From the NCBI GenBank assembly GCA_903929355.1, contig CAIYUN010000017.1, positions 62,001-126,000 of the forward strand: a DNA stretch of 64,000 nt, in the 5' to 3' direction. This document shows, one piece after another, positions 8,916-44,982 of the stretch (within the stretch, counting starts at the first letter, position 1; every line of letters begins with the position of its first letter). The notes beneath the pieces are model-generated. The model was not told the origin of the DNA, did not search any database, and was given only the letters and a program-made list of their open reading frames with translations. The stretch is from an uncultured Opitutaceae bacterium. GTDB lineage: Bacteria > Verrucomicrobiota > Verrucomicrobiia > Opitutales > Opitutaceae. The position numbers and the translations under genes were made by a program.

Positions 8916-8955
8916 ACGTGCGTTGTTTTAGACGTATGTCTGAAACAACGCACGT
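8916..8955. promoter_or_regulatory. 18-bp hairpin with 4-nt loop, terminator or operator
   Basis: Positions 8916-8933 and 8938-8955 are reverse complements in 17 of 18 positions (the left arm reads ACGTGCGTTGTTTTAGAC), separated by the loop GTAT. The hairpin lies 17 nt beyond the stop of the copper-motif gene and about 110 nt ahead of the MYG1 start, both on the - strand. No T-run follows on either strand, so a classical intrinsic terminator is doubtful. An operator or an RNA-stabilising element is equally possible. Confidence 0.6.
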
Positions 8956-38970: not shown

Positions 38971-39954
38971 ATGCCTGTCCTCGACTACGAACCGATGGTT
39001 TTTGCACCGCGTGCCGGGGCGGCGGCGCCCCTCTCCACGATCCAGGAGGAGGTTCTGGAGCTGAAACGTGTGCGGCGCGCGGTCATCCTGGCGCACAACT
39101 ACCAGGTGGATGAAATTCAGCGGGTCGCGGATTACGTGGGCGACTCGCTGGGGCTGTCCTACCATGCGCAGGCGGCGCAGGCCGACGTGATCCTCTTCTG
39201 CGGGGTGCACTTCATGGCGGAGACGGCCAAGATCGTGAACCCCGGCCGGACCGTGCTCCTCCCCGACCTCAACGCGGGCTGCTCGCTCTCCGACTCCTGC
39301 CCCGCCGAGCGCCTCGCGGCCCACAAGGCCGCGCACCCGGAGGCCTATGTGGTCGCCTACATCAACTGCTCCGCGGGGGTGAAGGCGCTCAGCGATGTGA
39401 TCTGCACCAGCGGCAACGCGGTGAAAATCGTGAACCGCGTGCCGGCGGACCGGGAGATCCTCTTTGTGCCCGACCAGAACCTGGGCCAGTGGGTCGCGCA
39501 GCAGACCGGCCGGGCGATGAAGCTGTGGCCGGGCAGCTGCTACGCCCATGTGCAGTTCACGGTGCGGGCGCTGGAGAAAGTCCGGGCGAAGTTCCCCGGC
39601 GCGCCAGTCGTCGCGCACCCCGAGTGCGTGCAGGCGGTGCGCGACCTCGCCGACGAGGTGTGCAGCACGGAGCTGATGGTGAAGTTCGCGCGGGAGAATC
39701 CGGCCCAAGAGATCATCGTGCTGACCGAGAGCGGCATGCTGCATCGCCTGCGCCGCGAGGTGCCGGGGAAGACTTTCATCGCCGGCCCGACCGATTCCTG
39801 CGCCTGCAACGACTGCCGGTTCATGAAAATGAACACCATCGAGAAAGTCCGCGACGCGCTGAAGAACCTGGTCCCCGTGATCGAGGTGCCGGAGCCAATC
39901 CGGTCCGCCGCTCTCATTCCCATCCAGCGCATGCTGGACTGGAGCAAAACGTAG
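38971..39954 (+). CDS. nadA: quinolinate synthase
   Basis: The 327-residue enzyme condenses iminoaspartate with dihydroxyacetone phosphate in NAD synthesis and uses a [4Fe-4S] cluster. Motifs seen are ILAHNYQVDEIQRVADYVGD, FCGVHFMAETAKI, DLNAGCSLSDSCP, AYINCSAGVKA, HPECVQAVRDLAD and CACNDCRFMKMN. The conserved Cys residues for the cluster are present. The ATG at 38971 follows a repeat; the longer frame from TTG 38920 would translate that repeat. nadB/nadC are not in view. The TAG stop directly abuts a palindromic element. Confidence 0.96.
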   Translation: MPVLDYEPMVFAPRAGAAAPLSTIQEEVLELKRVRRAVILAHNYQVDEIQRVADYVGDSLGLSYHAQAAQADVILFCGVHFMAETAKIVNPGRTVLLPDLNAGCSLSDSCPAERLAAHKAAHPEAYVVAYINCSAGVKALSDVICTSGNAVKIVNRVPADREILFVPDQNLGQWVAQQTGRAMKLWPGSCYAHVQFTVRALEKVRAKFPGAPVVAHPECVQAVRDLADEVCSTELMVKFARENPAQEIIVLTESGMLHRLRREVPGKTFIAGPTDSCACNDCRFMKMNTIEKVRDALKNLVPVIEVPEPIRSAALIPIQRMLDWSKT

Positions 39955-39975
39955 GGGCGTCGCTCGCCGACGCCC
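39955..39975. repeat. 8-bp palindrome abutting the nadA stop codon
   Basis: GGGCGTCG (39955-39962), loop CTCGC, CGACGCCC (39968-39975). The preceding GTAG contains nadA's stop codon TAG, so the element may have provided the stop. It lies between two convergent genes and could also end transcription. Confidence 0.65.
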
Positions 39976-39984
39976 TCCTCAGCC

Positions 39985-40947
39985 CTATTCCGGGATTTCG
40001 AGCAAAGGTGCGTAGCCCTCGTGGAAAGTCGGAAACGCGGGCTGCCAGCCAAGCACGCGTTTGATTTTTTCGTTGGCGATCACACGGTCGGGCGCGACGG
40101 CGCGCCGGCCGGAGGTGGGTTCGCCGGTGAAGCGCGGAGCGGGCACGCCCAATCGCGCGGCGAGCCAGGCGATGACCTCGGCCTTGGTCGCGGCACCGTC
40201 GTCGGCCACGTTGAAAACTCCGCCGGCGACTTCAGCCGGCGCGGCGAAGGCCGCCCAGATGGCCGCGGCGATGTCATCGCGGTGCGCCAGGTTGAGCCGG
40301 TGTTCGCCGCGCCCGGGAATCTCGGGGGCGCCGACGCGCAACTGGTCGAGCAGGTGATGGCGTCCGGGACCGTAGATGCCGGCGAGGCGGAGGATGAAGG
40401 CGCGGGGCTGGCTGCTCGAGGTAGGCGGGGTGCCCTCACCCCGCAGTTCGTCGGAGCGGGGTGTGGGAACCCCGCCTATATGGAAATGTGCGAGCAGCAG
40501 ATTTTCCGCCTCCACCAACACCTCCGCTGAATCTCCCCCGCCGCCCACCGGTGATTCCTCGGTCACCGTGACGCCACCGTCCTGGGCATAGACGGAGGTG
40601 CTGCTGGTATAGACCAAGGTGCGTGGGGGACCGCCGGCAGCGGCAGTCCACGCGAGGATGGAACGCATCCCGTCGACATAGCTGCGGCGGTAACCATTGA
40701 CCCCGCCCCCTCCGGCACTCACGCAGTTGAGCACAAAATCCGCCCCTCCGGGGATCGATGCGTACCACGCCGTGTCAGCCAGATCGGCCATGACCATGGT
40801 GATGCCGGCGGCGGTGAGGGCGCGGGCCTGCTCCGGATTGCGGGTGAGCGCCGTCACGCGCAGCCCGCGCGCGACCGCCTGCCGCGCGACCGTCGCGCCG
40901 ACGTAGCCCGCGCCGAAGACGACCAGATGGCGGCCGGAGAAATTCAT
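39985..40947 (-). CDS. NAD-dependent epimerase/dehydratase-like protein (YeeZ-like)
   Basis: The 320-residue Rossmann protein begins MNFSGRHLVVFGAGYVGATV, with the GxGxxG nucleotide loop near residues 12-17. It continues with VYTSSTSVYAQDGG (Ser/Tyr-type active region), RLAGIYGPGR and FNVADDGAATKAE. Substrates are probably nucleotide-linked sugars or related metabolites. Residues about 158-176 (GGVPTPRSDELRGEGTPPTS) are encoded by a strong palindrome and interrupt the otherwise conserved path. Longer frames to 41133 cross repeats and are rejected. It converges with nadA. Confidence 0.9.
   Translation of the reverse strand: MNFSGRHLVVFGAGYVGATVARQAVARGLRVTALTRNPEQARALTAAGITMVMADLADTAWYASIPGGADFVLNCVSAGGGGVNGYRRSYVDGMRSILAWTAAAGGPPRTLVYTSSTSVYAQDGGVTVTEESPVGGGGDSAEVLVEAENLLLAHFHIGGVPTPRSDELRGEGTPPTSSSQPRAFILRLAGIYGPGRHHLLDQLRVGAPEIPGRGEHRLNLAHRDDIAAAIWAAFAAPAEVAGGVFNVADDGAATKAEVIAWLAARLGVPAPRFTGEPTSGRRAVAPDRVIANEKIKRVLGWQPAFPTFHEGYAPLLEIPE
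40423..40477. repeat. 22-bp palindromic element inserted in the epimerase coding region
   Basis: 40423-40444 (AGGCGGGGTGCCCTCACCCC and GC) and 40456-40477 are reverse complements at 20 of 22 positions, with an 11-nt loop. The element keeps the reading frame and encodes about 18 residues. It begins GTAGG, as does the element after nadA. Confidence 0.85.
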
Positions 40948-41973: not shown

Positions 41974-44900
41974 ATGTGCGGCATAGCTGGATTTATCCAT
42001 GGTAACCTGGCGCCGGACGAGCGTTCCGCCGCGGTCGGGCGGATGAACGCCGCCATGCTGCACCGGGGGCCGGATGACGGGGGTGTGGGCACCTGGGGCC
42101 CGGCCACGCTCGGGATGCGGCGCCTGGCGATTTTTGACCCAGCCAACGGCCACCAGCCGATGAGCACGCCCGACGGCCGGTGGCACATCGTGTTCAACGG
42201 GGCCATCTACAATTTTCGCGAGCTCCGCGCCAGATTGGAGTCCGCGGGCCGGGTCTTTCACACGCAATGTGACACGGAAATCCTCCTCGGGGCCGTCGCC
42301 GAGTGGGGCGAGGCGGCGCTGCCGCGGCTGCGGGGGATGTTCGCGTTCGCGGCGTGGGACGCGCGGGAGCAGACGCTCCTGCTGGCCCGCGATCCATTCG
42401 GGATCAAGCCGCTCTACTACAGCGTCGGGGCCAATGGCAGCCTGCTCTTTGCCTCGGAGCTCAATGCGCTGCTGGCGTCCGGGCAGGTGGCGGCGGCGCT
42501 GGATCCGGTGGCGGCGGCGGCTTACATGGCGTGGCTGGCGGTGCCGGCGCCGCAGACGATCTATCGCAGCGCGCTCAGCCTGCGGCCGGGCGAGGCCGCG
42601 GTCTGGCGCGACGGACGGCTGACGCTGAAGACCTACTGGAGCCTGCGCGACGCGGCGACGGCGGACATCGCGCCGTGCGGTTCGCACGCGGAGTTCACCG
42701 CCGGTCTGCGCGCGCAGCTGGAGGACACCATCCGGGCCCATCTGCTGGCCGACGTGCCGGTGGGGGCGTTTCTCTCTGGCGGGCTCGACTCGACCGCAAT
42801 TGTCGCGCTGATGACCAAGCTCGGCGGCACGCGGCTGAAAACCTTTTCCATCGGTTTCGAGGAAGCCGGCTACTCCGAGGCGGACGAGGCCGCGGCCAAC
42901 GCAAAGTATCTGGGCGCGGAGCACCATGCGACCGTGCTGACCGGACGCCGTGTGGCGGACGACATCGGCACGCTGGTGGGGGCGCTCGACCAGCCGACCG
43001 GGGATGGGATCAACACCTACTATGCGAGCCAGGCGGCACGGGCCGGCGGGGTGACGGTGGCGCTCTCGGGGCTCGGCGGCGACGAGCTGTTTGGCGGCTA
43101 CCCCTCGTTCCGGGACGTGCCCCGGATCACCCGCTGGCTGCCGGTGTGGCGGAGCCTGCCCGCGCCGGCGCGGGCGGCTCTGCTCCACCGCTGGCGGCGG
43201 GGGGGCGACACCCGCTGGCTCAAGCTGGCCGACAGTCTGGAGCATGGACGGACCCCGGCGGCACTCGCGCTCCTGCACCGGGCGGTGCTCGCCGGGCCCG
43301 CGCGACGGGCGTTGCTCAACGCCGACCCGGGCCACCTGCGGCATCCCCAGGAGGAAAGTCTGGACCGGGAGCTAGCGGGCGCGGCGCCCGCGAACATCCT
43401 CAGCGCGGCTGAGTTGCGTGGCTACATGGCCGACGTGCTGCTGCGCGACAGCGACGGGATGAGCATGCGGCACTCGCTGGAGCTCCGCGTGCCCTTCGTG
43501 GACGTGCCGCTGGTCACCTGGCTGTGGCGGCAGCCCGCCGGATGGCGGACCTCGCCCGCGATCACCAAGTCCGCCCTGGTGGACGCCGTGCACGACCTGC
43601 TGCCCCCGGCGCTCCTGCGCCGGCCCAAGCGCGGATTCACGCTGCCCTTCAATCTTTGGATGCGGAAAGAACTGCGCCCGTTCCTCGATGAAACCTTCAG
43701 CACCGCGAGCGTGGGGCGGAGCGGGTTGTTCAACACCCCCGCGGTGCAGGCGCAATGGCGGGGATTTGTCGACGGCCTTGACCCCCGCGCGTGGTCGCGG
43801 GTGTGGAGTCTGGCCATGCTGGTCGCGTTCACCAACCGCCCGTCCCCTCCGGCCGCAGTCCGCGCGCCGGTGCCGACGGTGGGGCAGGGCGGTCCGCCCG
43901 CGACGGTCCGCGGGCGCACCCTGCTGCTGGTGCCGGAGATCTTTGCCTCCGAGGGCGGCATCCCGCGCATCCTTCAGCTTTACCTGAAGGCGCTCTGCGA
44001 GCTCACCGCACCCGGCGGTGCGGTGCGGCTGCTGGCCCTCAATGACGACGGCATCAGCCCGGAGGGACTCCGACGCAGCGCGGGCCCCGCGCTCGAAAGT
44101 CAGGAAGGTTGCAAGGGCAGCAAAAGCCGCTTTGTGCGGGCGGCGCTCCGGCTCGCCCGCGGGTGCGACCGGATCATCTGCGGTCATGTGGCCCAACTGC
44201 CGGTCGCCTGGCTGGCGCAGCGGCTGAACCCGCGGCTGCGTTACCACCTCGTGGCGCACGGCATCGAAGTGTGGCGGCCGTTCACGTTGGCCGAGCGGAT
44301 CGCGCTGCGGGGCGCGGAGTCCATCTTTTGCGTGAGCGCCTTCACCCGCGGCGAGCTGCTGAAGCATTGTCCGCTCCCGGCGGGCCGGGCGGTGGTGCTG
44401 CCCAACGCGCTCGACCCGGCGTTTCCCATCGGGCCCGGCACCCCCCCTGCCCAATGCCCGCCGCTCATCCTGACGGTGAGCCGACTCAGCCACGCGGACC
44501 GCTACAAAGGGGTGGAGCAACTGATCGCGGCCCTGCCCGCGGTGCGCGCCGCGGTGCCCGGTGCCCGGCTGCGGGTGATCGGGCGGGGTGACGACCTGCC
44601 CCGGCTGCAGGCCCTCCGGGACCGCGCCGGCCTGAAGGACGCGGTGGATTTCCCCGGCTATGTCGACGATGCGCGGCTGAGCGCGGAGCTGAACACCTGC
44701 CGGTTGTTTGCGCTGCCGAGCGACCGGGAGGGTTTCGGCCTGGTCTATCTCGAGGCGATGGCGCACGGCCGCCCCTGCCTGGGGGTGAGCGCGGGCGGAA
44801 GCCCCGAGGTCATCACCCCGGCCACGGGCGTGCTGGTCGGGCCGGGGGACGGTCCCGGCCTGGCGGCGGCCTGCGCCGCGGCAATGTCACGGCCATGGGA

Positions 44901-44982
44901 CACCGCCGCGATCCTGGCCCGGGCGCGGGATTTTTCGTATTCGCCCTTCAAGGCCCAACTGGCCTCACTCCTCGCCGCATGA
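41974..44982 (+). CDS. asparagine synthase (glutamine-hydrolysing) fused to a GT4 glycosyltransferase
   Basis: The 1002-residue protein opens MCGIAGFIHG, so Cys2 is the glutaminase nucleophile (class II amidotransferase domain, about 1-200). The asparagine-synthase domain has the PP-loop SGGLDS (268-273), LSGLGGDELFGGYPSF and MRHSLELRVPFVD, and runs to about 620. A Pro/Ala-rich linker (about 625-647) leads to a full GT-B domain from RTLLLVPEIFASEGG (about 648) to the end, with HGIEVWRPF, TVSRLSHADRYKGVEQL and the ExFxxxxxE-like DREGFGLVYLEAMA. AsnB-like proteins in such loci amidate sugar acids, so it may couple amidation to transfer. It starts the operon and overlaps wzm by 4 nt. Confidence 0.92.
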   Translation: MCGIAGFIHGNLAPDERSAAVGRMNAAMLHRGPDDGGVGTWGPATLGMRRLAIFDPANGHQPMSTPDGRWHIVFNGAIYNFRELRARLESAGRVFHTQCDTEILLGAVAEWGEAALPRLRGMFAFAAWDAREQTLLLARDPFGIKPLYYSVGANGSLLFASELNALLASGQVAAALDPVAAAAYMAWLAVPAPQTIYRSALSLRPGEAAVWRDGRLTLKTYWSLRDAATADIAPCGSHAEFTAGLRAQLEDTIRAHLLADVPVGAFLSGGLDSTAIVALMTKLGGTRLKTFSIGFEEAGYSEADEAAANAKYLGAEHHATVLTGRRVADDIGTLVGALDQPTGDGINTYYASQAARAGGVTVALSGLGGDELFGGYPSFRDVPRITRWLPVWRSLPAPARAALLHRWRRGGDTRWLKLADSLEHGRTPAALALLHRAVLAGPARRALLNADPGHLRHPQEESLDRELAGAAPANILSAAELRGYMADVLLRDSDGMSMRHSLELRVPFVDVPLVTWLWRQPAGWRTSPAITKSALVDAVHDLLPPALLRRPKRGFTLPFNLWMRKELRPFLDETFSTASVGRSGLFNTPAVQAQWRGFVDGLDPRAWSRVWSLAMLVAFTNRPSPPAAVRAPVPTVGQGGPPATVRGRTLLLVPEIFASEGGIPRILQLYLKALCELTAPGGAVRLLALNDDGISPEGLRRSAGPALESQEGCKGSKSRFVRAALRLARGCDRIICGHVAQLPVAWLAQRLNPRLRYHLVAHGIEVWRPFTLAERIALRGAESIFCVSAFTRGELLKHCPLPAGRAVVLPNALDPAFPIGPGTPPAQCPPLILTVSRLSHADRYKGVEQLIAALPAVRAAVPGARLRVIGRGDDLPRLQALRDRAGLKDAVDFPGYVDDARLSAELNTCRLFALPSDREGFGLVYLEAMAHGRPCLGVSAGGSPEVITPATGVLVGPGDGPGLAAACAAAMSRPWDTAAILARARDFSYSPFKAQLASLLAA

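Follow-up and report, generated by a model that had tools for sequence, protein, structure and literature searches.

Why does the gene for an epimerase-like enzyme carry a long palindrome inside its reading frame? The palindrome, at positions 40422–40478, is the highest-scoring inverted repeat of the whole window (the 64-kb stretch of DNA analysed here), with no other repeat equalling its score. The original prediction described an in-frame inverted repeat with 22-bp arms and 20/22 matches; the repeat is real, and we correct its arms to 23 nt each (40422–40444 and 40456–40478), 21/23 complementary with 11 nt between them, inside an element of 59 nt (40421–40479) that grows to ~63 nt when its AT-like ends are included. 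The minus-strand open reading frame (ORF) at 39985–40947 reads through the element, confirming the in-frame position, and the whole insert probably spans 40419–40481 (~63 nt, 21 codons), these outer limits being putative.

Each arm of the palindrome folds on its own into a hairpin, with a loop of 4 nt, and the element at 40421–40479 reads, in order, GTAGGCGGGGTGCCCTCACCCCGC - AGTTCGTCGGA - GCGGGGTGTGGGAACCCCGCCTAT. Its first REP unit (40421–40444, plus strand) consists of a GTAG head, an 8-bp stem and a CCCT loop, matching the family consensus exactly; it is followed by an 11-nt spacer, AGTTCGTCGGA (40445–40455), and by a second, inverted unit (40456–40479, minus strand), which has the head ATAG on the minus strand and two mismatches to the consensus. 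The complete unit of 24 nt follows the formula GTRG + GCGGGGTG-CCCT-CACCCCGC, in which GCGGGGTG and CACCCCGC form the stem. Two such arms, with 0 and 2 mismatches to the consensus, were found in the window, where 0.02 were expected. Folded as single-stranded DNA, the whole element reaches -27.4 kcal/mol compared to -11.4 ± 1.9 kcal/mol in shuffled sequences (z = -8.3), and the first 24-nt arm, folded separately, pairs perfectly over 8 bp around a 4-nt loop, the stem starting right after GTAG (z = -5.4). This arrangement, a GTRG tetranucleotide immediately 5′ of a short GC-rich hairpin, is the anatomy of GTAG-type REPs, so that the inverted pair, in which two opposed REPs form one long hairpin, constitutes a REPIN. 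We therefore assign the feature, with a probability of about 90%, to the REPINs, as an inverted pair of 24-nt GTAG-type REPs that together make up a non-autonomous mobile element.

The GTAG tetranucleotide plus hairpin is shared with the REP/BIME and TnpA-REP system of E. coli, where the GTAG hairpin is recognised as a single strand by a Y1/HUH protein (PMC8266576, PMC6006769). Compared to the E. coli REP, the family in the window has a perfect 8-bp stem, a CCCT loop and no stem bulge. Inverted REPs around a spacer are likewise found in the REPINs of Pseudomonas fluorescens SBW25 (Bertels & Rainey 2011, PMC3116915).

Further copies in the genome, which the original prediction had anticipated, are plentiful: searched against its own genome, the element gave 49 BLAST matches, and a single-REP pattern with ≤3 mismatches allowed found 39 (none in the reversed control). 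A reading as a transcription terminator was discarded, given that the element has no T run and that copies lie inside genes. No obvious target-site duplication was found at the window insert in a comparison that lacked a same-species empty site. We also weighed an 8-nt inverted repeat on either side of the insert (GCTGCTCG...CGAGCAGC) as a possible target feature and rejected it, as 2.3% of random positions are equally good.

The host protein and its loop

The host gene (39985–40947, minus strand) encodes a 320-aa NAD-dependent epimerase/dehydratase (PF01370; Pfam Epimerase E = 3e-16), an atypical SDR whose closest solved structures are 3GPI and 3IUS and whose substrate cannot be named. Between helix 139–155 and strand 182–188, the insert encodes about HIGGVPTPRSDELRGEGTPPT; an added peptide of ~18 residues had been predicted, and the peptide is indeed present, with a size of ~21 codons. 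The linker from helix to strand has a modal length of 19 residues among 98 aligned proteins (window protein included) and measures 41 in the window protein, and removal of ~63 nt leaves a window loop of ~7 residues, as in many homologues. The alignment thus shows the segment to be missing in homologues, in line with the prediction for an insertion. A native protein loop that is palindromic only by chance would also be in frame, and the length of this region varies somewhat from homologue to homologue; however, the homologues do without ~21 residues at this place, and the same 24-mers recur by the dozen at other sites, both in genes and in gaps, copies by which this explanation is already refuted and its probability brought close to nil.

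AlphaFold2 modelling (41-sequence alignment) yielded a pLDDT of 91.7 overall, with the weakest stretch, at 51–58, corresponding to the insert, so that the epimerase fold is predicted to be intact with the insert as a loop. Residues that are invariant in the family alignment are present in the window protein, and its ORF is open over 320 aa. The insert appears to be a tolerated surface-loop insertion. Had it instead inactivated the gene, we would be looking at a young pseudogene or a deleterious allele; a comparable loop occurs in only one relative, and the arms are few changes from the consensus, so the insertion may be recent, but the open ORF, the retained invariant residues and the intact predicted fold make inactivation unlikely.

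That one relative, a 66% identical homologue on a metagenome-assembled contig (L287, CAIRTK010000055.1), has a 41-residue linker as well. Here, at about 2458–2528, two REPs of the same family with their GTRG heads inward and a different spacer occupy the same loop of the same gene, which is an independent second event in this loop. As each genome holds a few intragenic copies and ~100 homologues were examined, such a coincidence is not very improbable, pointing to a permissive site rather than to selection, and the second event suggests that insertions of this kind are filtered by the tolerance of the loop.

Copies of the family are mainly extragenic, with no more than 8 of 27 clusters in the window genome lying in coding-like ORFs (an upper bound). 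Pfam nevertheless places copies in or between the domains of several proteins: mfd in the window genome; rsmA, a chorismate-binding enzyme and bioD-bioA in genome G002; and rsmB, dnaE, a SpoU methylase, an AMP-binding enzyme and uvrA in genome G041. The UvrA element falls in a gap of the alignment to solved structures, the RsmA element sits in a stretch ~26 residues longer than in the best structural match, and at the Mfd element the alignment to solved structures crosses a poorly conserved part, with no gap proven.

Intragenic dimers of GTAG REPs are already known in the Opitutaceae, above all in Opitutus terrae, and the window element adds one. Di Nocera et al. 2013 (PMC3733652) described GTAG repeats, found more intragenic ones in O. 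terrae than anywhere else, and reported that more than half of the intragenic inserts are dimers or groups encoding 20–30 residues, that insertions hit repair genes, uvrA among them, and that GTAG often supplies a stop codon. The O. terrae dimers (families GTAG-17, -19 and -20 among others) resemble our family in their Opitutaceae host, in their GTAG/GTGG head, and in their short stem-loops and inverted dimers, whose insertions into ORFs encode 20–30 residues, with GTAG stops and uvrA as a target; judged by description, GTAG-20 (mostly GTGG) is a candidate counterpart. For the window host gene, the cognate RAYT clade described below and the replichore polarity, we met no counterpart in the available part of that source.

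Could the peptide or the hairpin have been recruited, the former adjusting enzyme activity or the latter, as RNA, tuning gene expression? The independent insertions in the same loop of L287 might be taken in this sense, as might the intragenic REPs at about the same recB site in two Xanthomonas species, reported in PMC3733652. However, the peptides differ between the window and L287, a shared permissive loop explains both insertions, and the REP-decorated proteins are functionally unrelated to one another, which renders recruitment quite improbable. The encoded peptide is most likely functionless and merely tolerated, making the epimerase one more protein decorated by a selfish hairpin.

The REP family and its transposases

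We surveyed the window genome by combining pattern and BLAST searches with individual sequence stretches; among the loci examined, 10 are inverted doublets and 20 are singles. Doublet spacers range from 11 to 29 nt in these loci and from 8 to 57 nt in G041, and the heads seen are GTAG, GTGG or GGAG. Wherever both sides of a stem pair have changed, the pair has been re-paired (6/6 cells, 94 distinct copies). Genome G047 contains the re-paired stem variants GCCGGGTG/CACCCGGC and TCGGGGTG/CACCCCGA, including hetero-doublets that join two stem types, and genome G008 contains GCGCGGTG/CACCGCGC. These compensatory changes and the hetero-doublets of G047 indicate that it is the individual REP hairpin, not the long palindrome, that is conserved. 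The 24-mer is patchily distributed, occurring in 47 of 252 Opitutaceae genomes and in 16 of 49 genera. In G008 and G139, singlets predominate and are often exact; no excess decay of singlets relative to doublets was detected in a sample that, consisting of best matches, is biased. In the single REPs of G008, a weak conserved motif, about TTCCGAT, immediately precedes GTAG on its 5′ side; it may belong to the target or to the element itself.

The REP family is associated with a clade of Y1/HUH RAYTs. Eight Y1 genes (L370, L371, L378, L381, L385, L386, L387 and L388) from eight related species are flanked on both sides by the same REP with its heads outward, the second flanking REP of L388 having 1 mismatch, an arrangement also known from the RAYT genes of SBW25 (PMC3116915). 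Their products, of ~150 aa, carry an HxH motif (HVHFF) and conserved tyrosines, and together with L138, a RAYT whose flanking REP has another stem with the same kind of loop, they form one clade (support 97/76). Other RAYTs in REP-rich relatives carry other GTAG hairpins, suggesting that RAYT lineages tend to own their REP; the family thus ties one REP sequence to its RAYT clade over several Opitutaceae genera.

Of the Y1 genes that a PF01797 search recovered from eight genomes, none had a REP of the window family. The cognate RAYTs came to light only in further genomes rich in copies, partly because they score near the Pfam cut-off. In the window genome, no cognate RAYT was found in an assembly that is 96% complete and comprises 91 contigs; the one Y1 gene of suitable type there (L056, on contig C39) shares 34% identity with the cognates, and the REP that flanks it belongs to another family, GTAGGGACGCCTC-TCC-GAGGCGTCC. 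Several contigs of this assembly (C3, C14, C48, C50 and C83) start ≤40 bases from a REP copy. REPs may therefore break the assembly and hide the cognate gene, a loss that is possible given such contig starts and the 96% completeness.

The RAYT association also bears on the kinship that the original prediction had proposed, with the palindromic elements of Rickettsia. Those elements (RPEs) behave in the same way, as in-frame palindromes that encode 20–30 residues in many genes (PMC3733652), and this likeness holds: the window element is a mobile palindrome lying in frame in a coding sequence. Membership among them does not hold. According to the same source, the intragenic RPE-4 and RPE-6 are CGTC repeats of a different superfamily, without a GTAG head, whereas the head here is GTRG, no copy seen carries a CGTC tag, and the family is carried by cognate RAYT-type Y1 transposases. 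Assignment to the RPEs, or to other CGTC-tagged repeats, consequently has a negligible probability, and the element is better described as a GTAG REPIN.

For the REPIN in the epimerase gene, we infer a mechanism in which a RAYT of the cognate clade, now absent from this genome or unassembled, would have bound the single-stranded GTAG hairpin and then transferred it, or a copy of it, into the gene. The insert would have survived owing to a length that kept the frame, to arms that are stop-free in the frames used (peptides of the GGVPTPR and RGEGTPPT types), and to its presumed landing in a surface loop tolerant of a disordered peptide.

Orientation of single REPs along replichores

In two one-contig (complete) relatives with many copies, G008 and G139, the REPs within a replichore share one orientation in 53 of 56 and 68 of 72 cases, respectively, as judged by GC skew. 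Before 2.28 Mb, 28/29 copies in G008 are on the minus strand, and after it 25/27 are on the plus strand; the final copy (4.72 Mb) was scored among the exceptions, although its position beyond the second skew switch agrees with the pattern. In G139, 44/45 are on the plus strand below 2.05 Mb and 24/27 on the minus strand beyond (Fisher p = 9e-15); the single exception before the switch flanks the RAYT gene, and two of the later three are members of doublets. In both genomes, the switches of REP orientation coincide with the GC-skew switches, and the CTAC form is on the G-rich strand. G041 shows the same sense at 18:6, and in the window genome GC skew is too weak for replichores to be assigned.

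Flanking genes are mixed in orientation (a crude gene call gives 8 same-direction, 6 divergent and 5 convergent sites), which argues against gene orientation as the cause of the polarity. The GTAG form is on the coding strand at all 8 same-direction sites, however, so transcription may also play a part. Since random loss of one arm would yield no polarity, the singlets are hard to reconcile with decayed REPIN remnants. This is a difference from SBW25, whose singlets have been interpreted as REPIN remnants that are no longer functional (PMC3116915); in G008 and G139, singlets dominate, are often exact and are oriented by replichore. Single-strand, fork-coupled insertion has been reported for IS608 (PMC6006769), and insertion of this type by the RAYT would be the simplest account of the polarity. 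We tentatively suggest, at somewhat short of even odds, that the mobile unit is the single REP, inserted in one fixed orientation to the fork, and that doublets, the window element included, form by the arrival of a second REP next to one already in place.

The strand on which GTAG lies relative to the fork depends on the position of the origin, and dnaA in G008 lies away from the skew minimum. A search for rRNA genes near the skew switch points, as an independent indicator of fork direction, found none. In the literature searched, the coverage of which is incomplete, we found no report of replichore polarity of REPs; polarised singlets offer a direct handle on an open REP question, namely what the moving unit is, which strand it uses and at what time it moves. 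The GC skew of G008 (L224–L244, L457–L458) is extremely strong, reaching -0.66 at third positions, and there is no skew switch at its dnaA (376 bp), the switches lying near 2.28 and 4.5 Mb.

Other features of the window

A second GTAG-type, REP-like hairpin, GTAG GGGCGTCG CTCGC CGACGCCC, lies at the end of nadA (39951–39975, plus strand; GTAGGGGCGTCGCTCGCCGACGCCC) and had been suggested to form one family with the palindrome of the epimerase gene. The two share the architecture of a GTAG hairpin and, judged by sequence, belong to the same superfamily; stem and loop differ, which assigns the nadA hairpin to a different REP family. The TAG stop codon of nadA (39952–39954) is provided by the hairpin's own GTAG.

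Another strong palindrome, at 8916–8955 (ACGTGCGTTGTTTTAGAC-GTAT-GTCTGAAACAACGCACGT), has an ordinary base composition and is unrelated to REPs. Finally, a single ORF of 1002 aa at 41974–44982 comprises a glutamine-hydrolysing asparagine synthase (residues ~35–616) and a family 4 glycosyltransferase (~676–974).
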